Part shown: in pieces, positions 1-22,407 of the stretch | Layout: every line of letters begins with the position of its first letter | Position numbering within the stretch: the stretch's first letter is position 1 | NCBI RefSeq assembly: GCF_002072155.1 | Contig: NZ_BDIY01000001.1 | Location: 62,001-126,000 of the forward strand | Direction: 5' to 3' | Origin: Roseovarius sp. A-2 | GTDB taxonomy: Bacteria; Pseudomonadota; Alphaproteobacteria; Rhodobacterales; Rhodobacteraceae | DNA length: 64,000 nt | Notes under the pieces: model-generated | Databases searched by the model: none | The model's input: only the letters and a program-made list of their open reading frames with translations | What the model was told of the DNA's origin: nothing | Made by a program: the position numbers and the translations under genes

Positions 1-193
1 TCAGAAATCTGTCCAGAGCCTTGGTCCACATGCTACACCTCGCTTTCTGGCACCCGGTTCCAGGGCATCTTTACGGCGTACCAAACTTCTCCTTGTGCCC
101 GTTTGTTCCGGGTAGCCTGCTCGTGTGAAAGGTATTTTTGCGCAATTTCCCTGTTCTGTAAACGGTTTTGCCCGGCCCTGACCCGCCCCGCAC

Positions 194-222
194 TTGACTT
201 TGCCGCCCCGCCAAGGTGTATC
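194..222 (+). promoter_or_regulatory. candidate promoter of aspS
   Basis: A TTGACT hexamer at 194-199 and TGTATC at 217-222 are separated by 17 bases, a housekeeping-sigma arrangement about 50 bases upstream of the aspS start. The -10 match is only moderate. The rest of positions 1-270 shows no gene I can support. Confidence 0.4.
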
Positions 223-270
223 GGCCCGGACCCAAGAGACAGGCCCGCGACCGGGCTCGGAGAGGATAAC

Positions 271-6268: not shown

Positions 6269-7564
6269 TTACCCCGTCGATTGCGCGGCACCGGGAACCG
6301 GGCCGAGGCGGATATCTGCGCTGCGGGCATGCCCCTCCATCCGTTCCGCGCGGCTGAGATTGGCGGTGACGCGTGCCAGATCGGGCAGCGCGTGCTCGTC
6401 CACCTCCTGCCAGGTAACGGTCTTGAGGAACTTGTGCACCGACAGCCCCCCTGTGTAGCGCGCCGCCCCCGAGGTGGGCAAGACATGGTTAGGGCCGGCC
6501 GCCTTGTCGCCGAAGGCGACGGTGGTGTTTTCACCCAGGAAGAGCGAGCCATAGGCACGCAGCCGGGTGCGCCACCACGGCAGGTCGCGGGCCTGCACAT
6601 GCAGATGCTCCGGGGCCTTGTCGTCAGCGTAGCACGCCATCTCTTCGGCGCTGTCGCAGAGCACCACCTCGGCCAGATCGCGCCAGGCGGCGGCTGCGGC
6701 ACTGCGATTTGGCTCGGGCAGGGCAGCGATCAGGGCAGGCACGCGTGCGATCACCGCCTCAGCCAAGGGCTTGTGCGTGGTGGCCAGCCAGACCGGCGAA
6801 TTGGCCCCGTGTTCGGCCTGCCCCACCAGATCGGCGGCAACTGTGTCGGGACAGGCCGTGTCATCGGCAAGGATCAGGCTGTCGGTCGGCCCTGCAAACA
6901 TGTCGATCCCGATGGGTCCGAATAGTTGCCGCTTGGCCTCGGCCACATAGGCATTGCCGGGGCCTACAAGGATATCGGCGGGCGGCGCGCCAAATAGGCC
7001 AAACCCCATCGCCGCGATGCCCTGTACGCCGCCGATGGTCAGGATGCGCGTGGCCCCCGCCAGATCCATCGCAAACAGCATCGCGTCGGGAATGGGGCCG
7101 TGGCCGCAGGGCGGCGAACAGGCGGTGATGTCGGGCACGCCCGCCTCGCGCGCCGTGGCAATCGACATCAGCGCCGAGGCGATATGGCTATAGCGCCCTC
7201 CCGGCACGTAACAGCCCGCCGCCCCAAGCGGGATCTGGCGCTGACCGGCGCGTAGCCCGGGGCGCAGCTCGATCTCCATGTCCTGCGCCGTGGCGCGCTG
7301 TGCGGCGGCAAAGCGCGAGATATTGTCATGCGCCCAGACGATATCGTCGCGCAGGGCTTGCGGCACACGCGCACGGGCTGCCTCGATCTCGGCCCGGGGC
7401 ACAGTGATCTCCCCTTTCCAGCCATCCAGTTGCCGCGCATATTCCAGCGCCACCTGCGCACCGCTCGTCCGCAGCCGTGCCAGCATGATCTGCACGGTAT
7501 CGGCTACGTCACGGGCGGTTGCGGGCGGCTCTCCGGGGGCGGTCTTGAGATGGATCATGGGCAT
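6269..7564 (-). CDS. histidinol dehydrogenase family protein (HisD paralogue, possibly HpsN-like)
   Basis: A 431-residue HisD-superfamily NAD+-dependent dehydrogenase. Zinc and catalytic positions seen in HisD are present: GQAEHG, APEHLHVQ, GDKAAGPNHVLPT and the C-terminal MEGHARSA. No other his gene is adjacent and the sequence departs from true HisD (for example GDKAAGPNH where HisD usually has GDYASGTNH). Such paralogues in roseobacters include HpsN, which oxidises (R)-2,3-dihydroxypropane-1-sulfonate. Pairing with a racemase-like gene 9 bases downstream fits catabolism of a chiral hydroxy or amino compound, but the substrate is inferred only. GGAG precedes the chosen ATG. Confidence 0.82.
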   Translation of the reverse strand: MPMIHLKTAPGEPPATARDVADTVQIMLARLRTSGAQVALEYARQLDGWKGEITVPRAEIEAARARVPQALRDDIVWAHDNISRFAAAQRATAQDMEIELRPGLRAGQRQIPLGAAGCYVPGGRYSHIASALMSIATAREAGVPDITACSPPCGHGPIPDAMLFAMDLAGATRILTIGGVQGIAAMGFGLFGAPPADILVGPGNAYVAEAKRQLFGPIGIDMFAGPTDSLILADDTACPDTVAADLVGQAEHGANSPVWLATTHKPLAEAVIARVPALIAALPEPNRSAAAAAWRDLAEVVLCDSAEEMACYADDKAPEHLHVQARDLPWWRTRLRAYGSLFLGENTTVAFGDKAAGPNHVLPTSGAARYTGGLSVHKFLKTVTWQEVDEHALPDLARVTANLSRAERMEGHARSADIRLGPVPGAAQSTG

Positions 7565-7664
7565 GGCACGGGTCTCCTTCCCATCTAGGGATGGGGTGCG
7601 GGGCGTCCGTGGGCAAGCGAATTGCCGTAGAGGTGATCGGGTTTTTCCAGCCGCTTAAAGGCGT

Positions 7665-7681
7665 TTTCGGAATTTCCGAAA
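7665..7681. promoter_or_regulatory. perfect palindrome upstream of the HisD-like gene
   Basis: TTTCGGAATTTCCGAAA has 8-base arms around one central T. It sits between the metG stop (7690) and the start of the HisD-like gene (7564, minus strand), about 100 bases upstream of that start. It looks like an operator for a dimeric regulator rather than a terminator, because no T-run follows on either strand. Confidence 0.4.
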
Positions 7682-7689
7682 GGATTGGT

Positions 7690-9402
7690 CTAGTCCCGCG
7701 CGCCCGAGAACCGCGCCTGCCAGTCTTCGCGCTGATCATCGGTGATCTTGGAAAACAGCACCTCGGGCACGTCGAAGGCGTGGCCGGGGGCGAGGGCGTC
7801 AAGCCCGCCCGGCACGTCATCGGGCCAGGAGGTGTCATCGGTCCGCATTGCCGCCAGCATCGCGGCGGCGGCGTCGGGGATGAAGGGGCTAGAGAGCACC
7901 GCGTAGAGGCGGATGAGGTTGAGCGCCAGGCGGATCTGCATCGCGGCCCGCTCGGGGTCCTCCTTGAAAGTGGACCAGGGGGCGGCCTCTTGCAGATATT
8001 CGTTACCATCGACCCAGATCGCGCGCAGCGCGGCGGCTGATTTCCGGACCTCCATCGCCTGCATATGGTGTTCATATTCGCGAATGCGGGTCGTCAGGCG
8101 CTCAAGCAAAGCCTCTTCCTGCGCGCCGTAGGTCCCGCCCGTCGGCACCTCTTCGCCGAATTTCGAACGGCAAAACTTGGTCACGCGGGAGACGAAATTG
8201 CCCAATACGTCGGCCAGATCCTTGTTCACCGAGGCCTGGAAATTGTCCCATGTAAACTCGGCGTCCGAGCTTTCGGGCGCGTGGCTCAGCAGCCACCAGC
8301 GCCAGTAATCGGCAGGCAGGATTTCCAGCGCTTGGTCCATGAACACGCCGCGCCCGCGCGAGGTGCTGAACTGGCCGCCGTCGTAATTGAGGTAGTTGAA
8401 GGATTTCATGTAATCCACCAGCTTCCACGGCTCGCGCGATCCCAGGATCGTGGCGGGAAAGCTGAGCGCGTGGAAGGGCACGTTGTCCTTTCCCATGAAC
8501 TGGGTGTAGGTGACATCACTTGCCCCCTTGTCGGTGCGCCACCAGCGTTGCCAATCGCTGCCTTTGCCCGCGTCGACCCATTCCTTCGCGCAGGCGATGT
8601 ATTCGATGGGGGCGTCGAACCAGACATAGAACACCTTGCCTTCCATGCCGGGCCAGTCCTCGTCACCGCGCTTGACCGGGATGCCCCAGTCAAGATCTCG
8701 GGTGATGCCGCGATCCCGCAGCCCGTCGCCGTCATTGAGCCATTTCTTGGCGATCGAGGTGGTGAGAATCGGCCAGTCGGTCTTGCTGTCGATCCACGCC
8801 TCCAGCTCGTCCTTCATCTGCGACTGGCAGAGATAGAGATGCTTGGTCTCGCGCATCTCCAGATCGGTCGCACCCGAGATGACCGAGCGGGGCTCGATCA
8901 GGTCGACCGGGTCGAGCTGCTTGGTGCAGTTGTCGCATTGATCGCCGCGCGCCGAGTCAAAGCCGCAATTCGGGCAGGTGCCCTCGATGTAGCGGTCGGG
9001 CAGGTAGCGCCCGTCGGTGGGCGAATACATCTGCGTCTCTGACACCTCGCGGATCAACCCCTGCTCGTATAGACGCTTGGCGAAATGCTGGGTCAGCCGG
9101 TGGTTCTGTGGGCTGGAGGAGCGCCCGAAATGGTCAAAGCTCAGGCGAAAGCCGTCGGAGAGACGCTTTTGCACCTGCCACATCTCGGCGCAATAGTCCG
9201 CTACCGGCTGGCCCGCCTTGGCGGCGGCCAGTTCGGCGGGGGTGCCGTGCTCGTCGGTGGCGCAGAGAAACAGAACCTCGTCGCCTCGCGCGCGACAATA
9301 GCGGGCGAAAAGGTCGGCGGGAAGCTGGCTGCCCACCAGATTGCCGAGGTGCTTGATCCCGTTGATATAGGGGATCGCCGAGGTGATCAGATGACGTGCC
9401 AT
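7690..9402 (-). CDS. metG: methionine--tRNA ligase
   Basis: A 570-residue class I methionyl-tRNA synthetase (cytoplasmic). Visible are the HIGH-type motif as KHLGN near residue 20, a zinc knuckle CPNCG..CDNC around residues 140-160, and the [14 protein letters not shown] helix. The KMSKS signature is QFSTSRG, so the second Lys is Thr. The start is the ATG of [15 protein letters not shown]; the frame stays open further upstream without similarity. No C-terminal tRNA-binding (Trbp111-like) extension is present. The gene is transcribed toward the HisD-like gene, with a 125-base gap between them. Confidence 0.96.
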
Positions 9403-10252: not shown

Positions 10253-10956
10253 TACGGGGTCTCCAGACGGGTGCTGAGGGGGATGAGATGGGTGGTATCG
10301 GTATCGCGCAACAGCAAGCCGAATCGTTCGTCAACGCCGAGATAGGTACCGCGGCACCCGTCGAGGGTGATGTCCTCGCCGATGCCATGGGCCAGACCGC
10401 GCCATTCGGAATGCAGCACCTTGGTGCCGCCCTCTTCCCACCGGTTGATCCAGACCAGCGTATGCCTCGCCCATGCCTCCAGCAGGGAGACGGGATCGAC
10501 CTCGGCGCAGCCTTCGTCATAAAGGGCCGTCTGGTCGGGCGCGTCGCCGGGCCGCTCGGTGATCTGGATCAGCGGCAGTTCAAGGCCGACTACGAGCCAA
10601 TCGGGCTCGGCATCCGGTGCGGTGTCACTCGCCGCCACCCGCAGCCGCCCGCAGGCCGCGCCGTTGACGCGCAGCCCGCCTGACCATTCCAGGTGCACGG
10701 CCACTTCGGGCGGGGCGAGCGCGCCGAGCGCGTTCTGAAAGCCCACGCCGCAGGCCGGCAGCATCGCCATCGCGTCCTCGAGCGGAACCTCGGGGGCCAT
10801 GACGAGCGCGGCCAGCAGGTGATTGGCCGTCACGTTATGCACGATCAGGCCTGCGTCACAGCCCAAGGCCGCCATGGCGCAGGCCTTTTCGAACGGGTCG
10901 ATGGCCCCCTCGACGGCAAGGCTCGACATCAGCGGCGGAAAGTTGGGCGCGCTCAT
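10252..10956 (-). CDS. biotin/lipoate ligase-like protein (DUF4444), likely non-canonical
   Basis: A 234-residue protein related to the biotin/lipoate A/B protein ligase superfamily with a C-terminal DUF4444 domain. The segment VAVHLEWSGGLRVNGAACGRLR aligns with the BirA KWPND..LAGIL region (only the key part matters: EWSGG replaces KWPND), so the Lys that contacts biotin is Glu. The GRGRxG nucleotide loop is also not evident. It overlaps the Mrp gene by ATGA and the DUF6505 gene by one base. I infer it is not an ordinary ligase and may serve as a scaffold or modify a different substrate in the formate dehydrogenase locus. Confidence 0.78.
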   Translation of the reverse strand: MSAPNFPPLMSSLAVEGAIDPFEKACAMAALGCDAGLIVHNVTANHLLAALVMAPEVPLEDAMAMLPACGVGFQNALGALAPPEVAVHLEWSGGLRVNGAACGRLRVAASDTAPDAEPDWLVVGLELPLIQITERPGDAPDQTALYDEGCAEVDPVSLLEAWARHTLVWINRWEEGGTKVLHSEWRGLAHGIGEDITLDGCRGTYLGVDERFGLLLRDTDTTHLIPLSTRLETP

Positions 10957-12017
10957 GCCACGCCTTGTGCAATGAGTTGGCGCGCCACGACGCGAAACGC
11001 CTGTGCCTGCGCGCTGTCGGGTTTCGACACCACGATAGGCGCGCCACCATCCGAGGCGAGCCGAATGTCGAGATGCAGCGGGATCTCCGCCAGCAGCGGC
11101 ACGCCCAGTTTTTCGGCCTCGGCCTTAACGCCGCCATGGCCGAAGACATGCTCCTCATGCCCGCAATTGGAGCAGATATGCGTCGACATGTTTTCGATCA
11201 TGCCCAGCACCGGCACATGCAACTGATTGAACATGTCGATCCCCTTGCGGGCATCCAGCAACGCCACGTCCTGCGGGGTGGAGACGATGATCGCACCATC
11301 CACCTGCGCCTTTTGCGCCAGCGTCATCTGCACGTCGCCCGTGCCCGGCGGCAGATCCACGAGCAGACAGTCGAGCGCGCCCCATTGCACCTGCATCAGC
11401 ATCTGTTGCAGCGCGCCCATCAGCATCGGGCCGCGCCAGACCACCGCCTGCCCCTCATTGGTCATCAGGCCGATGGACATCATCGTCACACCGTGGTTGC
11501 GCATCGGCAGGATGGTCTTGCCATCGGGGCTGGCGGGGCGGCCCGACACGCCGAGCATGCGCGGTTGCGAAGGCCCGTAGACATCGGCGTCCAGAAGCCC
11601 AACGCGGCGGCCTTCGGCGGCGAGCGCGCAGGCGAGGTTGGCCGAGACGGTGGATTTGCCGACGCCGCCCTTGCCCGATGCGATGGCGATCAGGTGATTG
11701 ACGCCGGGCACCTTTTCGGGGCCCTTCGGCTCGGCCTTTTTGCCGGGTTTTAGATCGGGTGGGGCCTTGGCCGAATGGCCGGTGAGCACGACCGAAACCG
11801 TTTCGGCCCCCGGCAGCGCCTTGACGGCCGCCTCGGCCGCGTCGCGCACCGGGCTATAGGCCTCGGCCTTGCTCGGGTCGATCTCCAGCACGAAGCGCAC
11901 CGTGCCGCCATCGACGGTCAGCGCGCGCATCACGCCTGCGGCCACGATATCCGATCCGCTGACCGGATCGGTGATCTGCTTGAGCGCCGCGAGCACGCTC
12001 TCTCGTGTCAATGCCAC
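10953..12017 (-). CDS. apbC: Mrp/ApbC-type FeS cluster carrier P-loop ATPase
   Basis: A 354-residue Mrp/NBP35-family protein. It has an N-terminal MIP18/DUF59-like domain (residues 1-85), the deviant Walker A GKGGVGKS near residue 117, the switch region DVYGPSQPRMLG, and the conserved CSNCG cluster-ligating pair near residue 280. The family binds a bridging [4Fe-4S] cluster and passes it to apo-proteins in the cytoplasm. It lies 1 base after the DUF6494 stop and overlaps the ligase-like gene by ATGA. Its place beside a formate dehydrogenase with many FeS clusters suggests it helps load them; that link is inference. Confidence 0.93.
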   Translation of the reverse strand: MALTRESVLAALKQITDPVSGSDIVAAGVMRALTVDGGTVRFVLEIDPSKAEAYSPVRDAAEAAVKALPGAETVSVVLTGHSAKAPPDLKPGKKAEPKGPEKVPGVNHLIAIASGKGGVGKSTVSANLACALAAEGRRVGLLDADVYGPSQPRMLGVSGRPASPDGKTILPMRNHGVTMMSIGLMTNEGQAVVWRGPMLMGALQQMLMQVQWGALDCLLVDLPPGTGDVQMTLAQKAQVDGAIIVSTPQDVALLDARKGIDMFNQLHVPVLGMIENMSTHICSNCGHEEHVFGHGGVKAEAEKLGVPLLAEIPLHLDIRLASDGGAPIVVSKPDSAQAQAFRVVARQLIAQGVA

Positions 12018-12018
12018 G

Positions 12019-12213
12019 TCAGCCCTGCCCCTTGATCGTGCCGGTCACGACATGCTCGATATCGAGCCCGTCGACGGTCAGGACCACCTTGGCCTCGAAT
12101 TCCTGTCCTGTCGTGGCACCCTTTTCGCGCAGCCCCTCCTCGATGGCCTGCTGCGAGGTGACCCCCACCTGCTTGAGGAATTTGCGCATCGACATGTTGA
12201 AATCGTCGCTCAT
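12019..12213 (-). CDS. DUF6494 family small protein
   Basis: A 64-residue protein whose start (DDFNMSMRKFLKQVGVTSQ) is characteristic of DUF6494. It has no signal peptide or metal motif. Residues 10-30 look like a helix-turn-helix-sized segment (KQVGVTSQQAIEEGLREKG), followed by a beta-rich half. It is the first gene of the minus-strand arm and is separated by 1 base from the Mrp-type ATPase gene, so they should be co-transcribed. A GGGAGAAACCG sequence provides the ribosome-binding site. Function unknown. Confidence 0.82.
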   Translation of the reverse strand: MSDDFNMSMRKFLKQVGVTSQQAIEEGLREKGATTGQEFEAKVVLTVDGLDIEHVVTGTIKGQG

Positions 12214-12276
12214 CGGTTTCTCCCTTCGTGGTTCAGACTACTTGACGCCGACAGTGGCGCTTTTCTAGGCTTGGGT

Positions 12277-13050
12277 ATGCGCAGAGTGATTTCTCAACTG
12301 GCAAACCGCCTGTGGATCGTGCTTGCGGCTCTTGGCTTCATGCTGGACGTGGAGCAGGCGCGCGCCGATGACAAGCGATTTCGGCTGAGCGCGCCTGCCG
12401 CCCTCGTGGAGACTGGCCTGCTCGATTACCTGCTGCCTCGCTTCTCGCTCAAGACCGGGGTGCGGATCGAGGTGGTCGGCCCGGTTGATCCGGCTGAGAT
12501 GACCATCGGCCCCGAGGCGGGGCGCGCAGTGTTCAAGGGGGAAGGCGGTCTTTGGCGCATCTCGCGTGACGGCGATCACCCCGGGGCCGCGCGGTTCGCC
12601 GACTGGCTGACCTCCGAGATCGGGCAGCGCACCGTCACCAGCTACGAGGTCGCGGGCCGCGCAGTCTTTACCTTGGCGGAGGTGGCCGAAGAGGCCGAGG
12701 TCACACTTGATTTTGACGGCAACGCATCCGAGGGCAAGCGGGTGTCGCTGGTGCAATGCGGGCGCTGTCATGTCGTGGCTCCGGAAAACCGGATGAACGC
12801 CATGGGCTCCACACCGTCCTTTGCCGTGCTGCGCACAATGCCCGACTGGGCCGCGCGGTTCCAAAGTTTTTACGTGCTCAGGCCGCATGCTGCTTTCACG
12901 CAGGTCGAGGATGTCACAGCGCCGTTCCCGATCAACCGGCCGTCGCCCATCGTCCCCGTCGAGGTGACGCTCGACGAGGTGGAGGCGATCCTGGCCTATG
13001 TGGCGGAGATGGCCCCCGCCGATCTGGGCGCGCCGATTCAAGTTCAATGA
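12277..13050 (+). CDS. shortened TupA-like domain fused to a cytochrome c haem site
   Basis: A 257-residue exported protein. After a signal peptide (about residues 1-30, ending DVEQARA) comes a segment matching the start of tungstate-binding TupA proteins (TGLLDYLLPRFSLKTGVRIEVV) and, soon after, one matching their C-terminal end (FADWLTSEIGQRTVTSYEV). The middle, which carries most of the ligand cleft, is missing. Residues from about 160 hold CGRCH, a c-type haem site. The start ATG is the first giving a signal peptide; the frame is open far upstream across the divergent promoter. It converges with and overlaps the polyferredoxin gene by 7 bases. I infer a periplasmic electron-transfer or sensing role linked to formate dehydrogenase. 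Confidence 0.8.
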   Translation: MRRVISQLANRLWIVLAALGFMLDVEQARADDKRFRLSAPAALVETGLLDYLLPRFSLKTGVRIEVVGPVDPAEMTIGPEAGRAVFKGEGGLWRISRDGDHPGAARFADWLTSEIGQRTVTSYEVAGRAVFTLAEVAEEAEVTLDFDGNASEGKRVSLVQCGRCHVVAPENRMNAMGSTPSFAVLRTMPDWAARFQSFYVLRPHAAFTQVEDVTAPFPINRPSPIVPVEVTLDEVEAILAYVAEMAPADLGAPIQVQ

Positions 13051-14999
13051 TCCTTGCGCTTGCTGAGGTAATCCTCGGTGGTGCGGACGCGCGGGCGCGG
13101 GCCGGCGGCGAACGGGTTGTCGTGCGAGTGGAACTGCGCGTTGATCCGGCAGCCTTCGCACATCTGGATCATCTTTGCCGCATCCGAGGTGGCGAACATC
13201 GAATGCTTGCCCGCCAGCTTCTCGGTGATCCGCTCGATGGTCGATTTCGATCCGAATAGCACGCCGCATTCGATACAGGCAAAGGGCTCTTCCTCGTTGA
13301 GCACCACCTGGGTAAGTGCGCTGTCGTCGAGGTTCATCTGCGGTGCCAGCGTGATTGCCTTTTCGGGGCAGATGGTGGCGCAGATGCCGCATTGCAGGCA
13401 GGCATCCTCCTGAAAGCGCAGCTGCGGCAGATCCTCGTTATCCATCAGCGCGCCCGAGGGACAGAGCGAGACGCAGGAGAGACACAGCGTGCAGGCCTCG
13501 GTGTTGACCAGCACCGTCCCATAGGGGGCGGCATCCGGCAGGGGCAGGGTGCCGCCCCCGGTGTTCAGCGCGCGGGCGGCGAGGCGCGCCACCTGACGGC
13601 GGCTGCCCATCGGCAGGACCGGTTCGGACAGCGCCCGGGCAGGCTGCGCATCATAGAGCGCATCGCAGAGCGCGTCGGGATCACCGAGGTCGAGCATCCC
13701 CACAGCTGCGCCACCCGCCATGGCCTGCGCCAGAGGCACCTCTTGATCGAGCGCGTCACGCTCGGTGCGCGGCGACAGCAAAACCCATACCGCGCCAAAG
13801 CCCGAGGCGAGGGCTGCGAGGATCTCGGCATGGCCAAAGCCCGACAACGCCGACACCTCCAGCGGGATCACATCGGCGGGGAGCCCGCGCCCGTGGCGCG
13901 CGGCGAGGCGGATCATCTCGGCACCAAAGCTGGCGTCATGCACCAGAAGGCGCGGCACCTCACCGCCAGCCTTGCGATAGGCAGAGGCCAGCGTTTGCAT
14001 GCGCCGAAACGTCATGTCGGGGGGCGGCGCGTCGTAGGTGATCGCGCCCGAGGGGCAGCGCGCGGCGCAGGCGCCGCAACCCGCGCAGATCATCGGGTCG
14101 ATGCTGACATGATCGCCATCGGGTGAGATTGCGCCGGTGGGGCAGATGTCGAGGCATTTGTTGCAGCCAGTCTGCTCGGCGCGGGAATGGGCGCAAATCA
14201 GCGGCTCGAGCGCCACGTAAAGCGGTTTCTCGAAGGTGCCGATCAGTTGCGCCGCCTCGAACACCGCGTCCGACACCGCCGATAGACTGCCCGGATCGGC
14301 GCGCACATAGCCCTCGCGTTTCTGCGGGGCGGGGAACATCGGCGTACCACCGGTGAGGTCAAGAATGACGTCGCATTGCGTTTGCCCGCCGTCACGCGAT
14401 GCGGTCCAACTCAACACGCCGCGCCCGCCGGGATTGACCTGTTGCAGCGCGTCGAGGCGTAGCTCGAACTGGCCCAATGCCCCGCTTGCCTGCGTGATGC
14501 GGCCCCGAATTGCGTCGAACTCGCGGGCCTCGGGCGGGTCGGTGTCATCTGTCAGCATCACCGTGACCCCCAGAAGGGGGGCCAGTTTTTCGGCCGCAGG
14601 CAGCACCACATCGGAGGCCCCGATGATCAGGCACAGCCCCTCTGAGACCACGTCGAGGGTCTTCTCCGGGGGGGGCGGCAGGGCCGCCTCGGCCAGCAAT
14701 GCGGCCATTTTGGGTAGTTTCGGGGCTGGATCATCGGACCATCCCGCGCGGTCGCGCAGGTCGACAAGGGCTGGGGCGTCGGCCTCCAGATCGGTGGCCA
14801 GTTCCTCGAAGACCCGGGCCTCCTGCGCGCAGCAAATAATTGCCTCGCCCCCCTCGATCGCCTTGGCCGCCGACCCGATCTCGTCGGTGCAAAGCGCGCT
14901 GTGCAGCCGCGAGCAGGGCAGTCCGGTGGCCGCCTCCAACCCCGCGGCGTCTAGCGCTTGAGACGCGGAACAATCACACAATATCAGTTGCTTAGGCAT
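13044..14999 (-). CDS. polyferredoxin-like 4Fe-4S protein of formate dehydrogenase loci
   Basis: A 651-residue cytoplasmic protein with no signal peptide. Residues 1-270 are a domain without recognised motifs except a Cys-containing start (ILCDCSAS) and ICCAQE. Then come two ferredoxin pairs: CNKCLDICP with CAGCGACAARCP (near 280-320) and CTLCLSCVSLCP with CLQCGICATICP (near 500-560), so up to four [4Fe-4S] clusters. A C-terminal CIECG..CEGC region may bind another metal. The start ATG follows GGGGTGAAA. It is transcribed away from the DUF3305-to-FDH arm from a shared intergenic region. I expect electron transfer or a maturation role for FDH; the partner is unknown. Confidence 0.85.
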   Translation of the reverse strand: MPKQLILCDCSASQALDAAGLEAATGLPCSRLHSALCTDEIGSAAKAIEGGEAIICCAQEARVFEELATDLEADAPALVDLRDRAGWSDDPAPKLPKMAALLAEAALPPPPEKTLDVVSEGLCLIIGASDVVLPAAEKLAPLLGVTVMLTDDTDPPEAREFDAIRGRITQASGALGQFELRLDALQQVNPGGRGVLSWTASRDGGQTQCDVILDLTGGTPMFPAPQKREGYVRADPGSLSAVSDAVFEAAQLIGTFEKPLYVALEPLICAHSRAEQTGCNKCLDICPTGAISPDGDHVSIDPMICAGCGACAARCPSGAITYDAPPPDMTFRRMQTLASAYRKAGGEVPRLLVHDASFGAEMIRLAARHGRGLPADVIPLEVSALSGFGHAEILAALASGFGAVWVLLSPRTERDALDQEVPLAQAMAGGAAVGMLDLGDPDALCDALYDAQPARALSEPVLPMGSRRQVARLAARALNTGGGTLPLPDAAPYGTVLVNTEACTLCLSCVSLCPSGALMDNEDLPQLRFQEDACLQCGICATICPEKAITLAPQMNLDDSALTQVVLNEEEPFACIECGVLFGSKSTIERITEKLAGKHSMFATSDAAKMIQMCEGCRINAQFHSHDNPFAAGPRPRVRTTEDYLSKRKDH

Positions 15000-15392
15000 T
15001 TTCACCCCGAGTGTTTCGCACGGCTGGGTAGGCGACGTTTTTCGTCGGTTCGGCGCGAGATTAGGCATGATTCGAAGCCCTCGTAAACAGCAATTCGAAT
15101 CACGATGTTCGGCGAGAGCGCACGGTGAGTGGATAATTTTAATCCCGATTGATTCTGTTTGGATTCAGTATCTTGCAATGCGGCGTTGCAGCATTGCACG
15201 GGCAATGTGGACAATTTGACCCTTAGGGTTTTGGCCGCGTGTCGTGCAGGTCCAAAATGTCCGGACGTGTTTCAAAATGGACCAGTGCACACAGAAAAGG
15301 CTTTGCGCGGTCAGAAAACTGGACCAATCTGATCTCAACGCAGCAAGGGGATGGCACGACGCGTGACCCATAGCCACGAAAAAGAGGTGACG
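15000..15392. promoter_or_regulatory. divergent promoter region of the formate dehydrogenase locus
   Basis: About 390 bases between two divergent genes, lower in GC than its surroundings. It holds an inverted repeat TGCAATGC/GCATTGCA (15174-15181 and 15191-15198) and four similar sites of the form CAAAATGGACC at 15212 (CAATTTGACC), 15253 (CAAAATGTCC), 15273 (CAAAATGGACC) and 15315 (AAAACTGGACC). The offsets of 41, 20 and 42 bases are whole helical turns. I found no -24/-12 sigma-54 promoter. The sites may bind the locus regulator. Confidence 0.5.
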
Positions 15393-15941
15393 ATGCCGGT
15401 GGGGATCGTGATCCGAAAGTCGTCGGGTGTGACCCGGTGGGCGGCGTGGTCGTGGCGGGCGGTGGCGCTGTTGCCCGGGGCTGGTCCTGCCGAGTGGCGC
15501 GAATTGCGCCGCGAGGGCGAGGCGGTGGAATACCATGCCGCGACCGTTCATGTCGAATTGCATCACACCCAGACAGAAGCCTACCTGCAAGGCATATCGG
15601 CCAAGGTGCCGTCGATTTATGTAGTGATGCGCAATGGGGCGGCGGCACATCGCGACGGCGCGCCGCTCGACGTGGTGCTGGCCACCGCGTCCCCCTTCGA
15701 GGCACAGGATTACGCCGATACCGGCGAAGAGATCGTCGAGAAGGTGCCGATGCCTGAGGGGATGATCGCCTGGGTGCGCGATTTCGTCGAGGCGCATCAC
15801 GAAGACGAAGAATTCAAGAAGCGTAGGCGCGACAGGCGCACCATCGGCGATGCGCAGGACGGTATCGGTGATCCGCGCATTCCGCAGATGAGCGACGTTT
15901 ATCGCGCGCCGGTGATGGTGCGCAAAGGGAGGCTGCATTGA
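15393..15941 (+). CDS. DUF3305 domain-containing protein
   Basis: A 182-residue DUF3305 protein with the family features VIRKSSGVTRWAAWSWRAVA near the start, HVELHHTQTEAYLQG in the middle and PMPEGMIAWVRDFVEAHH toward the end. It is cytoplasmic, without signal peptide. The ATG at 15393 follows AAAGAGGTGACG; an upstream ATG at 15351 is in frame but has a poor ribosome-binding site. DUF3305 occurs almost only in formate dehydrogenase loci of Proteobacteria, next to DUF3306 and a TorD-like chaperone, as here. Biochemical function is unknown. Its stop overlaps the start of the next gene. Confidence 0.86.
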   Translation: MPVGIVIRKSSGVTRWAAWSWRAVALLPGAGPAEWRELRREGEAVEYHAATVHVELHHTQTEAYLQGISAKVPSIYVVMRNGAAAHRDGAPLDVVLATASPFEAQDYADTGEEIVEKVPMPEGMIAWVRDFVEAHHEDEEFKKRRRDRRTIGDAQDGIGDPRIPQMSDVYRAPVMVRKGRLH

Positions 15942-16561
15942 GCCGGGGGGGCGATTTCTGGTCGCGCCGCAAGGCGCAGGTCGTGGCGGAGGCCGAGGCA
16001 CAGGCCCGCGCAGCCGAGGCCGAGGCGCGCGCCGTGCAGGACGCGGAGCAGGCGGAAAAGAGCGATGCGGATCTGTGCGAAGAGCTGGGCCTGCCGGATC
16101 CCGACACCTTGCAGCCCGGCGATGATTTCCGCGCCTTCATGGCCAAGGCGGTGCCCGACCGGCTGCGCCGCCGCGCGCTGCGGCGGCTGTGGCTGAGCAA
16201 CCCGGCTCTGGCCAATCTCGATGGGCTGCTCGATTACGGTGAGGACTTCACCGACAGCGCCACGGTGATCGAGAACATGCAGACCGCCTATCAGGTCGGC
16301 AAAGGCATGACCGCCCACGTCGAGGAAATGGCGCGACAGGCCGAGGCCGAGGCGCAGGCGGCGCAGGAGCCGGAACCCGAGCCCGAAGAGGCCCCGCAGG
16401 AGGCCGAAGACGAGACCCCGCCGCAGGTGGCCGAGGCCGACGAAGCGCGGGAGATGGCAGAGCCCTATGCCTGGGCCGATACGCCCGAGGCCGAGGAGGC
16501 CGCACCGCCGCGCCGCCGCATGCGGTTTGAGTTTGACGATACCGCCGGAGCATCGGCATGA
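15938..16561 (+). CDS. DUF3306 domain-containing protein
   Basis: A 207-residue DUF3306 protein. It opens with SRGGDFWSRRKAQVVAEAEA, runs through an Ala/Glu-rich helical stretch, then the conserved core (PGDDFRAFMAKAVPDRLRRRALRRLW, of which DFRAFMAKAVPDRLRRRALR is the key part, and LDGLLDYGEDFTD), and ends in a low-complexity Glu/Ala/Pro tail with a final basic patch. It starts with TTG, overlapping the DUF3305 stop (TTGA). The stop overlaps the next ATG (ATGA). The run of overlaps shows one translationally coupled unit. Function is unknown beyond association with formate dehydrogenase. Confidence 0.84.
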   Translation: MSRGGDFWSRRKAQVVAEAEAQARAAEAEARAVQDAEQAEKSDADLCEELGLPDPDTLQPGDDFRAFMAKAVPDRLRRRALRRLWLSNPALANLDGLLDYGEDFTDSATVIENMQTAYQVGKGMTAHVEEMARQAEAEAQAAQEPEPEPEEAPQEAEDETPPQVAEADEAREMAEPYAWADTPEAEEAAPPRRRMRFEFDDTAGASA

Positions 16562-17187
16562 CCCAGCAAGAGGCCCTTATGCAAGACCAGACCGCCACGC
16601 CGGAGATCACCGAAGAGGACGCGCTGCGCGCCGATCTCTATGATTTCCTTGCAGCCCTTCTGGCGCGCCCGCCGGGGCAGGACCTGCTGGCCAAGACCGC
16701 CGCGCTGAGCGGCGATCAGAGCGACATGGGGCAGGCCATAGCGGCGCTGGCCCGCGTCGCCCGCGTGAGCAAGCCCGGCGCGGTCGAGAGCGAGTTCAAC
16801 GCGCTTTTCATCGGGCTGGGCCGGGGCGAACTCCTCCCCTATGCCAGCTACTATCTGACCGGGTTTCTCAATGAAAAGCCGCTCGCCGGGCTGCGCCGGG
16901 ATATGGCCGCGCGCGGGATGACGCGAGCGCAGAACGTCTACGAGCCCGAGGACAATATCGCGTCTTGCATGGAGATGATGGCGGGGCTGATCCGGGGACG
17001 CTTCGGCAAACCCGCCACGCTCGCCGAGCAAAAGACGTTTTTTGCCAAGCATGTCGGCCCTTGGGCCGGGCATTTCTTCAGCGATTTGGAGGCCGCGCGC
17101 AATTCGGTTCTCTATGCCTCGGTCGGTGCTGTCGGCCGGGTGTTCATGGAGATCGAGGCGCAGGGCTTTCGGATGAGCGTGGGCTGA
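16558..17187 (+). CDS. TorD/DmsD-family molybdoenzyme chaperone
   Basis: A 209-residue all-helical protein of the TorD family, which holds the apo-catalytic subunit of a Tat-exported molybdo- or tungsto-enzyme and proofreads its signal peptide until cofactor is inserted. The signature EFNALFIGLGRGELLPYASYY is clear around residues 80-100, with YEPEDNIASCMEMMAGLI following, as in other members. It begins at the ATGA overlap with DUF3306. Its expected client is the FDH alpha chain encoded at 17539, whose signal peptide has the twin-arginine motif. Confidence 0.88.
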   Translation: MTQQEALMQDQTATPEITEEDALRADLYDFLAALLARPPGQDLLAKTAALSGDQSDMGQAIAALARVARVSKPGAVESEFNALFIGLGRGELLPYASYYLTGFLNEKPLAGLRRDMAARGMTRAQNVYEPEDNIASCMEMMAGLIRGRFGKPATLAEQKTFFAKHVGPWAGHFFSDLEAARNSVLYASVGAVGRVFMEIEAQGFRMSVG

Positions 17188-17242: not shown

Positions 17243-17431
17243 ATGACCCGGAAACCCGAGGATGGCAGCAGCCGCCGCGATTTCCTCAAAATGGCCGCCA
17301 CCGGCGCGCCCGCTGTCGCGGTCGCAAGCGTGGTGACCGCGGGCACGGCCGCAGCCGCGCCTGACCTGACATCGGACAAGATGCAGGACACCGCGCATAC
17401 CCGCGCCTATTTCGACAGCGCCCGGTTCTAA
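17243..17431 (+). CDS. small formate dehydrogenase region Tat-target protein
   Basis: A 62-residue protein consisting of a twin-arginine signal (SSRRDFLKMAATGAP, then a hydrophobic stretch) and a short mature part of about 25 residues ending HTRAYFDSARF. It matches the small Tat-dependent proteins found just before formate dehydrogenase catalytic genes. GAGGAGGGG precedes the ATG. Mature function is unknown; proposals include escorting the catalytic subunit through Tat. It lies 55 bases after the chaperone gene and 107 bases before the FDH alpha gene. Confidence 0.88.
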   Translation: MTRKPEDGSSRRDFLKMAATGAPAVAVASVVTAGTAAAAPDLTSDKMQDTAHTRAYFDSARF

Positions 17432-17538: not shown

Positions 17539-20433
17539 ATGCTTAGGAAAAAGACCAACGGGGTTGCGCGACGCCCCCAGCGGACCAGTATCCTGTCTGA
17601 GGTCGCCGATACATCGGTCGACCGCCGCGCGTTCCTGCGCGGTAGCGGTCTGGCCATCGGTGGCCTGGCTGCTGTGGGCGCGCTTGGGGGCACCGTCACC
17701 CGCGCGAATGCCCAAAGCGCCGCCGCAGAGGCGGTGCAAACGGTGAAATCCGTCTGCACCCATTGCTCGGTCGGCTGTACGGTCGTGGCCGAGGTGCAAA
17801 ACGGCGTCTGGACGGGTCAGGAACCCGGCTGGGACAGCCCCTTCAACCTGGGCGCGCATTGCGCCAAGGGCGCGTCGGTACGCGAGCACGCGCATGGTGA
17901 ACGCCGCCTCAAGTACCCGATGAAGAAAGAGGGCGGTGAGTGGAAGCGCATCAGCTGGGAACAGGCGATCGACGAGATCGGCGACGGCATGATGAAGATC
18001 CGCGAAGAGAGCGGCCCGGATTCGGTCTATTGGCTCGGCTCTGCCAAGCACAATAACGAGCAGGCCTATCTCTTCCGCAAGTTCGCCGCCTATTGGGGCA
18101 CCAACAACGTGGACCATCAGGCGCGCATCTGTCACTCGACCACCGTTGCGGGCGTTGCGAATACATGGGGCTACGGCGCCATGACCAACAGCTACAATGA
18201 CATCCACAATTCCAAGGCGATCTTCATCATCGGCGGCAACCCGGCCGAGGCACATCCCGTCAGCCTGCTGCATGTGCTGAAGGCCAAGGAAGAGAACAAC
18301 GCCCCCCTCATCGTCTGCGATCCGCGCTTTACCCGCACGGCGGCGCATGCCGACGAATATGTGCGTTTCCGTCCCGGTTCGGACGTGGCGCTTGTCTGGG
18401 GTATCCTGTGGCACATCTTCGAGAACGGCTGGGAGGACAAGGAGTTCATCCGCACCCGCGTCTGGGGCATGGATCAGATCCGCGACGAGGTGAGCAAGTG
18501 GAACCCCGAAGAGGTTGAGCGCGTTACCGGCACCCCCGGTTCGCAACTGCGTCGGGTTGCGCGTACATTGGCCAATAACCGGCCCGGCACCGTGATCTGG
18601 TGCATGGGTGGCACGCAGCACACCAACGGCAACAACAACACCCGCGCCTACTGCATCCTGCAACTGGCGCTCGGCAACATGGGCACCGCTGGTGGCGGCA
18701 CCAACATCTTCCGCGGCCATGACAACGTGCAGGGTGCGACGGATCTCGGCGTTCTCAGCCACACCCTGCCGGGCTATTACGGCCTTGCAAAAGGGTCCTG
18801 GGCGCATTGGGGCCGGGTCTGGGGCGAGGATATGGAGTGGCTCGACGCCCAGTTCGCCACGATCAAGGACAAGGATGGCAAGGACAAGTCGCTCCAGCAG
18901 TTGAGCGGTATCCCGGTCAGCCGCTGGATCGACGGCGTGCTCGAAGACCCTGCCAACATGGACAATCCCAACAAGGTGCGGGCCATGGTGCTCTGGGGGC
19001 ATGCGCCCAATAGCCAGACGCGCGGCAAGGAAATGAAGACGGCGATGGAACAGCTCGACATGCTGGTCGTGGTCGATCCCTATCCGACGGTCTCGGCGGT
19101 CATGCATGATCGCACCGATGGCGTCTACCTGCTGCCGGCCTGTACCCAGTTCGAGACGCGCGGCTCTGTCACCGCCTCGAACCGCTCGCTTCAGTGGCGC
19201 GACCGCGTGGTCGAGCCTTTGTTCGAGAGCAAGCCGGATGAGGTCATCATGGCCAAGTTCGCCAACAAGTTTGGCTGGGCTGACCGGTTCTTCCGCAATA
19301 TCGAAATGGAAGATGCGGAAACGCCGAATGTCGAGAGCATTACGCGCGAATTCAACCGCGGGATGTGGACCGTCGGCTATACCGGCCAGAGCCCGGAACG
19401 GCTCAAGATGCACATGGCCAATCAGCACACCTTTGACCGCACGACGCTGCGCGCGGTCGGCGGGCCTGTTGACGGCGAGACCTACGGTCTGCCTTGGCCC
19501 TGCTGGGGCACGCCTGAAATGGGGCACCCGGGCACGCATATCCTCTACGATATGTCCAAGCCGGTCTCAGAGGGTGGCCTGACCTTCCGCGCGCGTTTCG
19601 GTGTCGAGCGGGATGGCGACAACCTGCTGGCCGAAGGCGTTTACTCGGCGGGCTCCGACATCCAGGACGGGTATCCGGAATTCACCATGCAGATGCTGAT
19701 GGATCTGGGTTGGGACAGCGAGTTGACCGACGAGGAACGCGCGTCGATCGACGCGGTCGCGGGCCCTGACACCAACTGGAAAACCGACCTTTCGGGCGGT
19801 ATCCAGCGGGTGGCGATTGCCCATGAATGCGCCCCCTTCGGCAATGCTAAGGCGCGCGCTGTGGTCTGGACCTTCCCCGATCCGGTGCCGCTCCATCGCG
19901 AGCCGCTCTATACCAACCGGCGCGATCTGGTGGCGGATTATCCGACCTACGAGGACCGGCACGCCTACCGCCTGCCGACTATGTATGCCTCGATCCAGAA
20001 GAACGACTTCTCGAAGGATTACCCGATCATCCTCACCTCCGGCCGTCTGGTCGAATACGAGGGTGGCGGCGACGAGACGCGGTCAAACCCGTGGCTGGCC
20101 GAGTTGCAGCAGGACATGTTCGTCGAGATCAACCCGCGCGATGCCAACGATATCGGCATCCGTGACGGCGCTCAGGTCTGGGTAGAAGGTGCCGAAGGTG
20201 CCAAGGTCAAGGTCATGGCGATGGTGACCGAACGTGTGGGGCAGGGCGTGGCCTTCATGCCGTTCCACTTCGGTGGTCATTTCGAGGGCAAGGACCTGCG
20301 GGACAAGTATCCCGACGGGGCCGATCCCTATGTTCTGGGCGAAGCTACAAACACCGCCCAGACCTATGGCTATGACAGCGTGACCCAGATGCAGGAGACC
20401 AAGGCGACTCTCTGCAAAATCGTTGCAGCATAA
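17539..20433 (+). CDS. formate dehydrogenase alpha subunit, Cys-type, Tat-exported
   Basis: The 964-residue catalytic subunit, oxidising formate to CO2 at a bis-molybdopterin-guanine-dinucleotide Mo or W centre. Arg29-Arg30 in DRRAFLRG is the Tat motif, so it works in the periplasm. Cys73, Cys76, Cys80 and Cys108 bind the proximal [4Fe-4S] cluster. Cys198-His199 in ARICHSTT are the metal ligand and catalytic His; the codon is TGT, so it is a cysteine and not a selenocysteine enzyme. The C-terminal quarter is the pterin-binding domain. The ATG follows GGAGGAGAGAGAAAC. Beta and gamma subunits follow directly. Mo versus W cannot be decided from sequence. Confidence 0.95.
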   Translation: MLRKKTNGVARRPQRTSILSEVADTSVDRRAFLRGSGLAIGGLAAVGALGGTVTRANAQSAAAEAVQTVKSVCTHCSVGCTVVAEVQNGVWTGQEPGWDSPFNLGAHCAKGASVREHAHGERRLKYPMKKEGGEWKRISWEQAIDEIGDGMMKIREESGPDSVYWLGSAKHNNEQAYLFRKFAAYWGTNNVDHQARICHSTTVAGVANTWGYGAMTNSYNDIHNSKAIFIIGGNPAEAHPVSLLHVLKAKEENNAPLIVCDPRFTRTAAHADEYVRFRPGSDVALVWGILWHIFENGWEDKEFIRTRVWGMDQIRDEVSKWNPEEVERVTGTPGSQLRRVARTLANNRPGTVIWCMGGTQHTNGNNNTRAYCILQLALGNMGTAGGGTNIFRGHDNVQGATDLGVLSHTLPGYYGLAKGSWAHWGRVWGEDMEWLDAQFATIKDKDGKDKSLQQLSGIPVSRWIDGVLEDPANMDNPNKVRAMVLWGHAPNSQTRGKEMKTAMEQLDMLVVVDPYPTVSAVMHDRTDGVYLLPACTQFETRGSVTASNRSLQWRDRVVEPLFESKPDEVIMAKFANKFGWADRFFRNIEMEDAETPNVESITREFNRGMWTVGYTGQSPERLKMHMANQHTFDRTTLRAVGGPVDGETYGLPWPCWGTPEMGHPGTHILYDMSKPVSEGGLTFRARFGVERDGDNLLAEGVYSAGSDIQDGYPEFTMQMLMDLGWDSELTDEERASIDAVAGPDTNWKTDLSGGIQRVAIAHECAPFGNAKARAVVWTFPDPVPLHREPLYTNRRDLVADYPTYEDRHAYRLPTMYASIQKNDFSKDYPIILTSGRLVEYEGGGDETRSNPWLAELQQDMFVEINPRDANDIGIRDGAQVWVEGAEGAKVKVMAMVTERVGQGVAFMPFHFGGHFEGKDLRDKYPDGADPYVLGEATNTAQTYGYDSVTQMQETKATLCKIVAA

Positions 20434-20445
20434 GGAGATACTGAT

Positions 20446-21042
20446 ATGGCAAGAGCAAAGTTTCTGTGCGACGCCGAACGCTGCATCGAATGCAACGCCT
20501 GCGTTACCGCCTGCAAGAACGAGCACGAGGTGCCGTGGGGGATCAACCGCCGCAAGGTGGTGACGATCAACGATGGCAAGCCGGGTGAGCGCTCGATCTC
20601 GGTCGCCTGCATGCACTGCTCGGACGCGCCCTGCATGGCCGTCTGCCCGGTGGATTGCTTCTACCAGGACGAGGAAGGTGTGGTCCTGCACTCCAAGGAC
20701 CTGTGCATCGGTTGCGGTTATTGCTTCTACGCGTGCCCGTTCGGTGCGCCGCAATTCCCGCAGGCGGGCAACTTCGGAAGCCGTGGCAAGATGGACAAGT
20801 GCACCTTTTGCAAGGGCGGCCCGGAAGAGAACCACAGCCAGGCCGAGTTCCAGAAGTACGGGCGCAACCGGATCGCCGAGGGCAAGCTGCCCATCTGCGC
20901 CGAGATGTGCTCGACCAAGGCGCTTCTGGCAGGCGACGGTAATGTCGTCTCGAGCATCTACCGCGAACGCGTCGTGGCGCGTGGCTTTGGCTCGGGCGCG
21001 TGGGGCTGGGGCAGTGCCTACGGCCAGCAAAGCGGCGGCTGA
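20446..21042 (+). CDS. formate dehydrogenase beta subunit (four [4Fe-4S] ferredoxin)
   Basis: A 198-residue electron-transfer subunit. Four cluster motifs are visible: CIECNACVTACK, CMHCSDAPCMAVCP, CIGCGYCFYACP and CTFC..CAEMCSTKAL. It passes electrons from the alpha-subunit cluster to the haem b of gamma. It has no signal peptide and is presumably carried through Tat with alpha. It lacks the C-terminal membrane anchor of Escherichia coli FdnH/FdoH. AAGGAG sits ahead of the ATG and the gene starts 12 bases after the alpha stop. Confidence 0.94.
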   Translation: MARAKFLCDAERCIECNACVTACKNEHEVPWGINRRKVVTINDGKPGERSISVACMHCSDAPCMAVCPVDCFYQDEEGVVLHSKDLCIGCGYCFYACPFGAPQFPQAGNFGSRGKMDKCTFCKGGPEENHSQAEFQKYGRNRIAEGKLPICAEMCSTKALLAGDGNVVSSIYRERVVARGFGSGAWGWGSAYGQQSGG

Positions 21043-21054
21043 ATGCCGTTACGG

Positions 21055-21160
21055 GCCGGCCGGGCACGGTCCCGGCCGGTGACCGATGCCGGGTGTCCCC
21101 GAGACGCCCGGCATCGGAAACTTTGAAAGTTTCCGATCCGATTTCCTATAAGGAAATCGG
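21055..21160 (+). promoter_or_regulatory. four back-to-back hairpins between FDH beta and gamma
   Basis: Four inverted repeats fill this gap: 21055-21080 (CCGGCCGGG arms), 21083-21117 (15-base arms with one G-U pair, loop CCCGA), 21113-21137 (perfect 12-base arms ATCGGAAACTTT around one G) and 21138-21160 (CCGATTTCCT, loop ATA, AGGAAATCGG). The second and third share five bases and cannot form together. The last right arm contains the AAGGA that could serve the gamma gene. No T-run follows, so this looks like mRNA processing, stabilisation or translational control rather than a terminator. Confidence 0.75.
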
Positions 21161-21183
21161 TGCCTTATACAATGATCGAGGAT

Positions 21184-22407
21184 ATGATGCGCGCTTTACT
21201 CAGCCTGGCTCTATGTCTCCTGCTCGCCCTGCCCGCTGGGGCACAGGACACGTCCGCCCCGTCCGGCCCAGACCGCGGCGCAACCGGTGGGGCACAGACG
21301 CTCGAAGATATTCTGGCCCGTCAGCGCGGTGAGCCGGTCGACGACTCGTTCCGTCGAAATGCCACGGGCGGCGACGATGCCGCCGGTATGGCTGGGCAGT
21401 TGGGCACGCTTGGCGGGGCATCCGATGCCGAGGTCTGGCGGGCGCTGCGCTATGGTCTCGATGACGTCAAGGTCTCCTCGGGCGGGCCCGAGGCAAGGGT
21501 GCTCATTCAGGATGGCGGCATGTCCTGGCTTGCGTTCCGCAAGGGGCCGCTGGCGACCTATGGGGCCTGGCTCCTGGGGGTGACAATCGCGCTGCTGGCG
21601 CTGTTTCTCCTGATCCGGGGTCGTATCCGCATCGATGGCGAAAAGACCGGCCGCACCGTCATCCGCTTTCAGGCGGTGGAGCGGTTTGGTCACTGGCTGA
21701 TGGCGGGCTCTTTTGTGGTGCTGGCGATTACCGGGCTGTTGGTGCTGTTCGGCCGCACGGTCGTCATTCCGCTTTTGGGGCATGAGGCGTTCTCGACCAT
21801 CGCGGTGGCGTCGAAATGGGTGCATAACAACATCTCATGGGCCTTCATGCTGGGCCTCGTGATGGTGTTCTTCATGTGGGTTCTGCACAACATTCCCAAC
21901 CGGACCGACCTGAAATGGCTCGCTGTCGGTGGGGGCATCTTCACCAAGGGCGTGCATCCGCCCGCCAGGAAATTCAACGCCGGGCAAAAAATGATCTTCT
22001 GGGCGACCATCGTGTTTGGGGCCTCGATCTCGGCTTCGGGCCTGTCGCTGCTGTTTCCGTTCGAGTTGCCGATGTTCGCCAAGACCTTTGCCATTCTCAA
22101 CGACACCGGGCTGCCGCAGGCCGTGGGTTTCGGGGGGCTGCCCGAGATGCTTGCCCCGCATGAGGAAATGCAGCTGGCGACGCTGTGGCATTCGATCATG
22201 GCGTTTGTGCTGATGGCGATCATCCTCGCGCATATTTATATCGGCTCTGTCGGGATGGAGGGTGCGTTCGATGCCATGCACTCGGGCGAAGTCGAGGAGC
22301 AATGGGCGCGTGAGCACCACGGTTTATGGCTTGAGGAGTTGCAGGAGAAGGGCCATGCGCCCGACCCCGGCCCAAATCGCACCAAGGCCGGCACGCCCGC
22401 GGAATAG
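21184..22407 (+). CDS. formate dehydrogenase gamma subunit (cytochrome b)
   Basis: A membrane subunit of about 407 residues that carries haem b and hands electrons to quinone. A signal peptide (MRALLSLALCLLLALPAGAQ) is followed by a roughly 100-residue periplasmic region, then membrane helices beginning at GAWLLGVTIALLALFLLI and a FdnI-like core (RFQAVERFGHWLMAGSFVVL, WVHNNISWAFMLG, HSIMAFVLMAIILAHIYIG) containing the haem-ligating His. The start is uncertain: GTG 21160 or ATG 21172, 21184 or 21187; the last two give the cleanest signal peptide. It ends 2 bases before the WD40-cytochrome gene. Confidence 0.9.
   Translation: MMRALLSLALCLLLALPAGAQDTSAPSGPDRGATGGAQTLEDILARQRGEPVDDSFRRNATGGDDAAGMAGQLGTLGGASDAEVWRALRYGLDDVKVSSGGPEARVLIQDGGMSWLAFRKGPLATYGAWLLGVTIALLALFLLIRGRIRIDGEKTGRTVIRFQAVERFGHWLMAGSFVVLAITGLLVLFGRTVVIPLLGHEAFSTIAVASKWVHNNISWAFMLGLVMVFFMWVLHNIPNRTDLKWLAVGGGIFTKGVHPPARKFNAGQKMIFWATIVFGASISASGLSLLFPFELPMFAKTFAILNDTGLPQAVGFGGLPEMLAPHEEMQLATLWHSIMAFVLMAIILAHIYIGSVGMEGAFDAMHSGEVEEQWAREHHGLWLEELQEKGHAPDPGPNRTKAGTPAE

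Follow-up and report, generated by a model that had tools for sequence, protein, structure and literature searches.

A c-type cytochrome fused to a single TupA-derived lobe beside formate dehydrogenase genes of Roseovarius and its relatives

Introduction

The tungstate-binding protein TupA consists of lobe A (residues 2-76 and 201-251), a central strand (residues 77-89) and lobe B (residues 91-200), and the structure 3muq has been classed as a TupA, both according to the part of the TupA paper drawn on here (PMC5517513). The pairing of a binding protein with a cytochrome is described for a different system. XoxG takes electrons from the methanol dehydrogenase XoxF, whereas a role in activation has been proposed for XoxJ, a periplasmic binding protein, and the two are fused as XoxG/J in the Methylacidiphilum strains SolV and Kam1, as stated in the passages of PMC8170126 used here. 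As for formate dehydrogenase (FDH), fdhGHI operons with DUF3305 and DUF3306 were described in 2015, in a survey devoted to NarJ-type chaperones (PMC4464133), in whose main text, the part used here, the terms 'cytochrome c' and 'tungst' are absent. A fusion of a TupA lobe with a cytochrome was not named in the literature that we searched by titles and abstract openings. Here we analyse such a fusion in a stretch of 64,000 nucleotides from Roseovarius sp. A-2, referred to as the window.

Results

A fusion gene at a formate dehydrogenase locus

The fusion gene starts with the ATG at 12277 and ends at 13050 with the stop codon TGA. It encodes an exported protein of 257 aa in which a signal peptide is followed by a TupA-derived domain and then by a c-type cytochrome. 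Two minus-strand genes precede it and a third one follows, with which its 3' end overlaps by 7 bases; the genes beyond, up to FdhC, all lie on the plus strand.

10953..12017, minus strand: Mrp/NUBPL-type Fe-S carrier ATPase (PF10609)
12034..12225, minus strand: DUF6494 protein (PF20104)
12277..13050, plus strand: tupA-lobe/cytochrome c fusion gene, ORF of 257 aa, homologues in 76 of 198 genomes
13044..15068, minus strand: poly-[4Fe-4S] ferredoxin-like protein whose start is uncertain; its gene converges on the fusion gene
15393..15941, plus strand: DUF3305 (PF11749)
15938..16561, plus strand: DUF3306 (PF11748)
16558..17187, plus strand: TorD/NarJ-like chaperone (PF02613)
17539..20433, plus strand: FdhA, molybdopterin-type FDH catalytic subunit (PF00384, PF01568, PF04879), twin-arginine signal read from the sequence
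20446..21042, plus strand: FdhB, Fe-S subunit (PF13247)
21160..22407, plus strand: FdhC, cytochrome b561-type membrane subunit (PF01292)

Upstream of the ATG the open frame extends by about 136 codons (window 11869-12276, plus strand), antisense to the DUF6494 gene; this extension has no Pfam match and is probably a high-GC artefact. Upstream of fdhA, after the TorD-like gene, there is an ORF of 62 aa (window 17243-17431, plus strand) whose product has a twin-arginine-like signal; the part of PMC4464133 drawn on here lists an 'fdh tat' protein among those of such FDH operons. Another fusion copy from the same genus (G742:C2:115496-116065) contains an in-frame TGA and matches the profile only up to position 190 of 247, so that it may be broken.

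Both ends of TupA are retained in sequence

The preliminary description had read the protein as the start and the end of a TupA joined without the middle, followed by a cytochrome c with a CGRCH motif. An alignment with an HMM built from 25 alphaproteobacterial TupAs bears this out, as 35 residues take the place of the 178 found in TupA. The protein is divided as follows.

12277..12366, plus strand: Sec-type signal peptide, residues 1-30 (ARA/DD, read from the sequence; helix 2-33 in the model)
12373..12678, plus strand: single-lobe TupA domain, residues 33-134 (from superposition on TupA 5my5)
12406..12477, plus strand: N-terminal TupA piece, residues 44-67, equal to TupA model 14-37 (HMM alignment)
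12478..12582, plus strand: 35 residues replacing TupA model 38-215, with strands 75-78, 83-88 and 91-97
12583..12672, plus strand: C-terminal TupA piece, residues 103-132, equal to TupA model 216-245 (HMM alignment)
12721..13047, plus strand: c-type cytochrome domain, residues 149-257
12757..12771, plus strand: heme-binding CGRCH, residues 161-165 (C, C and H in 76 of 76)
12883..12888, plus strand: P203-H204, invariant (76 of 76), H204 being a candidate second axial ligand

From 78 distinct homologues we aligned 74, leaving out a near copy (L033), two cytochrome-only forms (L037 and L038) and one sequence cut by a contig end (L048). Both TupA pieces were found in order in 69 of the 74 (56 at E<1e-3) and in none of 1480 shuffled sequences. 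A chance resemblance was therefore rejected, and the similarity to TupA, whose significance in a profile search the preliminary description had left to be settled, was upheld. The NCBIfam TupA model NF041772 matches the window protein in two stretches (E=1.3e-4) with 21.4 bits against a cutoff of 400 bits; since no TupA match in the 198 genomes reaches that value either, the cutoff is too strict for this group. The best phmmer match in the PDB is 3muq (E=4.6e-4), aligned over the N-terminal piece and, weakly, over a C-terminal one. Because hhalign of the whole lobe gave the C-terminal piece alone (E=4e-10), the two halves were compared with TupA separately, yielding E=5.9e-9 and 1.1e-12. A profile of the N-domain of the 74 homologues retrieved 3muq (7.2e-7, both ends), the TupA 5my5 (2.1e-5, mainly the C end), 3cvg (5.2e-5, C end) and the TupA 3lr1 (0.0055, best at the N end). 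A MAFFT alignment mixing lobes and TupAs served for visual inspection only.

A second TupA lineage, with TTSFHNSG in place of STTST, is encoded together with tupBC directly past mrp at many FDH loci, next to many of the fusion genes (L060:11632-12381, L084:4873-5616 and others) and may, judging from this motif, have a different ligand. An origin of the lobe from this lineage is disfavoured, as all 74 lobes score higher with the model of the classical type when the two models (25 and 16 sequences) are compared; the ancestry of the lobe thus lies on the classical side. One homologue, L035, still matches the TupA model at 4-81 and 214-249 and is likely an intermediate in the loss of the lobe.

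A complete single lobe under selection

An AlphaFold model computed from the 74-row alignment has a pLDDT of 91.9 and a pTM of 0.65, the latter leaving the arrangement of the domains unsure. A structure prediction had been proposed as a check for a binding-protein fold, and such a fold was indeed obtained: VIA-align ranks TupA 5my5 first (Z 15.7, 1.5 A over 102 residues, model 33-134 on chain 3..249), followed by 3muq, 3cvg, 3kn3 and 3lr1 (Z 12.1-13.6) and then by ModA-type chains (up to 11.8). Foldseek also ranks TupA first (E=3e-3); none of its matches reaches E<=0.001. AlphaFold may itself have drawn on the sequence kinship, so that the fold match does not count as fully independent evidence. 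As the remnant matches both chain ends of 5my5, it represents the TupA lobe A from which lobe B has been cut out. Strands 83-88 and 91-97 of the model may derive from the two strands of the former hinge, now paired as a hairpin.

The suspicion that the ligand cleft is gone was confirmed. The two-lobe cleft of TupA is absent, the model matching lobe A only, and the TupA residues R118, T124 and D170 fall within the missing lobe B. Furthermore, T10-T11-S12, present in 41 of 41 TupAs, is replaced by P40-A41-A42 in the window protein; threonine occurs in one of the 74 lobes at position 40 and in one at position 41, which means that the TTTS-type oxyanion motif is lost. A TupA-descended protein that has neither the two-lobe architecture nor the TTTS site should therefore not be called a tungstate-binding protein, and the lobe is probably a non-binding domain. 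By contrast with their variability in TupA, the basic residues R55 and K59 are present in 74 of 74 lobes.

Three pairwise comparisons (window, L033, L034) gave dN/dS values of 0.17-0.24 for the lobe and 0.11-0.14 for the cytochrome; the lobe is under purifying selection. The term 'decayed', used for the fold in the preliminary description, does not hold, since the domain is predicted with confidence as one whole lobe, on which purifying selection acts. A decayed tupA pseudogene was likewise rejected, given 74 alignable homologues and these dN/dS values.

The cytochrome domain

The Pfam Cytochrom_C match is weak (E=0.2, below the cutoff). The cytochrome c assignment is nonetheless borne out, as C161, C164 and H165 of CxxCH occur without exception in the 76 aligned cytochrome domains, and so do P203 and H204. 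At the position three residues after H204 there is Phe in 71 of the 76 and Met in none. Of the distant generic relatives (L112-L122), by contrast, 10 of 11 carry Met at this position; its absence from the family points to a changed sixth heme ligand, perhaps H204. Met is found at alignment position 25 (M173) in 52 of the 76. The model of the domain, which contains no heme, has a pLDDT of 89.1; its nearest structure is SoxX (1h31_B) with a modest Z of 6.7, and the best matches, all with Z at most 6.7, are class-I-like. From the conserved residues, the heme would be attached at CGRCH and ligated within this domain.

Distribution and linkage to formate dehydrogenase

A homologue search with the single protein yielded only two Roseovarius loci, a limit of that method. 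R. tolerans DSM 11457 has a homologue of 88% identity. A homologue was present in 76 of the 198 genomes sampled from the family, the window genome among them; two of these (G004 and G054) have the cytochrome match only. In an order-level sample the full-length profile finds a match in 80 of 244 genomes, two as cytochrome only, and two genomes of another family (f80) carry the fusion. In a phylum-level sample 10 of 349 match, all from the same class or closer, in a sample that may hold few or many genomes from outside the class.

DUF3306, which we used as a proxy marker of the FDH locus, occurs in 99 of the 198 genomes: in 75 of the 76 homologue carriers and in 24 of the 122 non-carriers. The carrier without it (G008) is a genome of 82% completeness with the gene near a contig end. 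Fisher values for such marker associations overstate independence, because the genomes are related. We inspected 63 loci (the window, two from Roseovarius and 60 others, covering 60 of the 75 other carrier genomes, with flanks as wide as the contigs allowed), and FDH genes lie alongside in 59. The FDH context noted beforehand is thereby corroborated. The further idea that the pairing is restricted to FDH loci stood in part: it agrees with these 59 loci, whereas no FDH gene was seen in the stretch at L042, L048 and L125, and four cytochrome-only relatives in the family lie away from FDH genes. In L042 and L048 (both fusions) the contig ends soon after the gene, which accounts for the missing FDH genes; L037 and L038, the remaining two of the 63, are cytochrome-only forms located elsewhere, and the lobe-bearing L125 has no FDH gene within its stretch.

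A separate TupA match (E<=1e-40, a few of the matches being incomplete) was found in 137 of the 198 genomes, namely in 99 of 99 with DUF3306, including all 76 carriers, against 38 of the 99 others. From this co-occurrence the FDH of DUF3306 loci is probably tungsten-dependent. In 21 of the 63 loci a TupA gene lies within the stretch. The intact tupBCA genes of the window genome are on another contig (L178:233-3598, contig C5), where a divergent helix-turn-helix/SBP-like gene sits beside tupA.

In 24 of the 99 DUF3306 genomes no cytochrome-profile match was found; these 24 were searched without a positive control genome, with a profile that does find targets in other searches. Among 15 inspected loci of these genomes, 14 have fdhA in the stretch (all except L146), and in nine of the 15 the Mrp, DUF6494 and Fe-S genes are together with the slot closed, as in L139 with about 20 bases between the DUF6494 and Fe-S genes. 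The fusion gene is thus optional at FDH loci. In L139 the poly-Fe-S gene (7272-9289) consists of two overlapping open frames, possibly a frameshift.

The neighbours of the fusion gene (Mrp, poly-Fe-S, DUF3305, DUF3306, TorD-like) resemble maturation proteins, so that the protein might act on FDH in the periplasm as a maturation or stability factor instead of a catalytic carrier, similar to the role on XoxF proposed for XoxJ, for which cofactor insertion is considered in the part of PMC8170126 used here. We regard this as unlikely, given the 24 of 99 DUF3306 genomes with no match. Moreover, insertion of the pterin cofactor takes place in the cytoplasm, ahead of Tat export, whereas the signal of the fusion protein is of the Sec type.

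Standalone forms of the cytochrome

In other families of the Alphaproteobacteria the cytochrome is encoded on its own at FDH loci. Of 23 matches outside the family, 16 were taken up with their loci. Twelve strong standalone loci were inspected. DUF3305/DUF3306 is in the stretch at seven (L124, L126, L127, L128, L129, L133, L181), L130 has only the Fe-S neighbour and DUF6494, and no FDH marker was found in the stretch at four (L131, L132, L134, L182). Nor was one found with the cytochrome-only genes of the family itself (L037:9011-9442, L038:5310-5723, L179:9148-9579, L180:8311-8835). In our reading, the free cytochrome would predate the fusion. A cytochrome tree (109 columns, 90 rows, bootstrap unsettled) requires two changes of the fused/alone label (2-4 in the bootstraps) and is too weak for fusion and loss events to be counted.

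TupA is also present at five of the 12 standalone loci (L126, L127, L129, L130, L181). L181 has the order cyt-tupB-tupC-tupA on one strand, and L129 holds tupBCA, an HTH/SBP gene, the cytochrome and FDH genes. Since the standalone cytochrome occurs with tup genes in L181, a role in tungstate handling fits as well: the lobe would sit on TupB via the remaining permease-docking face of TupA, and the heme domain would gate tungstate import, or report on it, in response to the periplasmic redox state or to the demand of FDH. The separate TupA match in all 76 carriers and the TupA genes at 21 of 63 fusion loci agree with such an uptake accessory. Yet the constant neighbours of the fusion gene are FDH genes and not tupBC, the tupBCA of the window genome lies on another contig, and binding proteins usually dock with both lobes. 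On balance we consider this role rather improbable.

In L124 a cytochrome-only form occupies exactly the slot of the fusion gene, perhaps as a result of lobe loss. The existence of such forms would suit a lobe that is dispensable ballast, a neutral leftover on a cytochrome that alone matters, as would the placement of the L124 form (L101 in the tree) among fused forms, albeit with weak support, and the faster evolution of the lobe (0.17-0.24 against 0.11-0.14). However, a lobe dN/dS well under 1 and R55 and K59 in all 74 lobes make this very unlikely.

Discussion

A redox or sensor module, as initially suggested, is a plausible role; for the sensor part we found no evidence in this analysis. 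The explanation that we favour, to which we give about an even chance, would make the protein a periplasmic monoheme cytochrome c that is accessory to the FdhABC FDH and has the TupA lobe as its docking domain. In the order of events that we infer, a cytochrome already tied to FDH loci would have been fused to a TupA copy, with the removal of lobe B leaving a non-binding single-lobe domain. This lobe could serve as a protein-docking or positioning handle, and the heme would take or hand over electrons at the probably tungsten-dependent FdhABC. In such FDHs, FdhC passes electrons to quinone. A second electron acceptor would thus not be needed, because FdhC should already serve quinone. Against the favoured explanation also stand the 24 of 99 DUF3306 genomes with no cytochrome match, 14 of whose 15 inspected loci still have fdhA, as well as the four of 12 standalone loci and the four cytochrome-only genes of the family with no FDH marker.

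More tentatively, a lobe cut near the hinge might have become a docking domain that either connects a Met-less, perhaps bis-His heme to a tungsten FDH or ties it to the tungstate importer; we take this as a possible but doubtful variant. If the heme were tied to the importer, metal supply and formate respiration would be coupled.

The locus offers a readable case of a binding protein that loses a whole lobe and gains a redox partner, with a likely intermediate (L035) surviving. Furthermore, it points to a periplasmic cytochrome partner, unnamed in the literature searched, of a widespread, probably tungsten-using alphaproteobacterial FDH, in a family where the fusion is common among the relatives of Roseovarius (76 of 198 genomes, including the two cytochrome-only ones), and it bears on bacterial formate and tungsten use and on CO2-reduction enzymes.

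Comparison with known systems

The window protein shares with TupA of Desulfovibrio alaskensis G20 (5my5) the lobe A fold, the sequence at both chain ends and the export, and TupA itself is encoded in the genomes that have the FDH marker. It differs from TupA in having no lobe B (with R118, T124 and D170), in the loss of the TTS motif and in the fused cytochrome c. With SoxX-like and other class-I cytochromes c it has the single CxxCH in common, SoxX 1h31_B being the best structural match at Z 6.7; unlike them, it has the Met of PHxxM replaced, by Phe in 71 of 76 members of its family, and the match remains below a Z of 8. The nearest functional parallel, drawn by analogy, would be the XoxG/J fusion (cytochrome cGJ), which, in the part of its description used here, likewise joins a periplasmic binding-protein-like domain to a c cytochrome for a periplasmic dehydrogenase. 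Its partner, however, is the methanol dehydrogenase XoxF, and the likeness drawn here is one of architecture and proposed role. Fusions of binding proteins with cytochromes are thus already known, and the new element, in the light of the literature searched, would be one with a single lobe at FDH.
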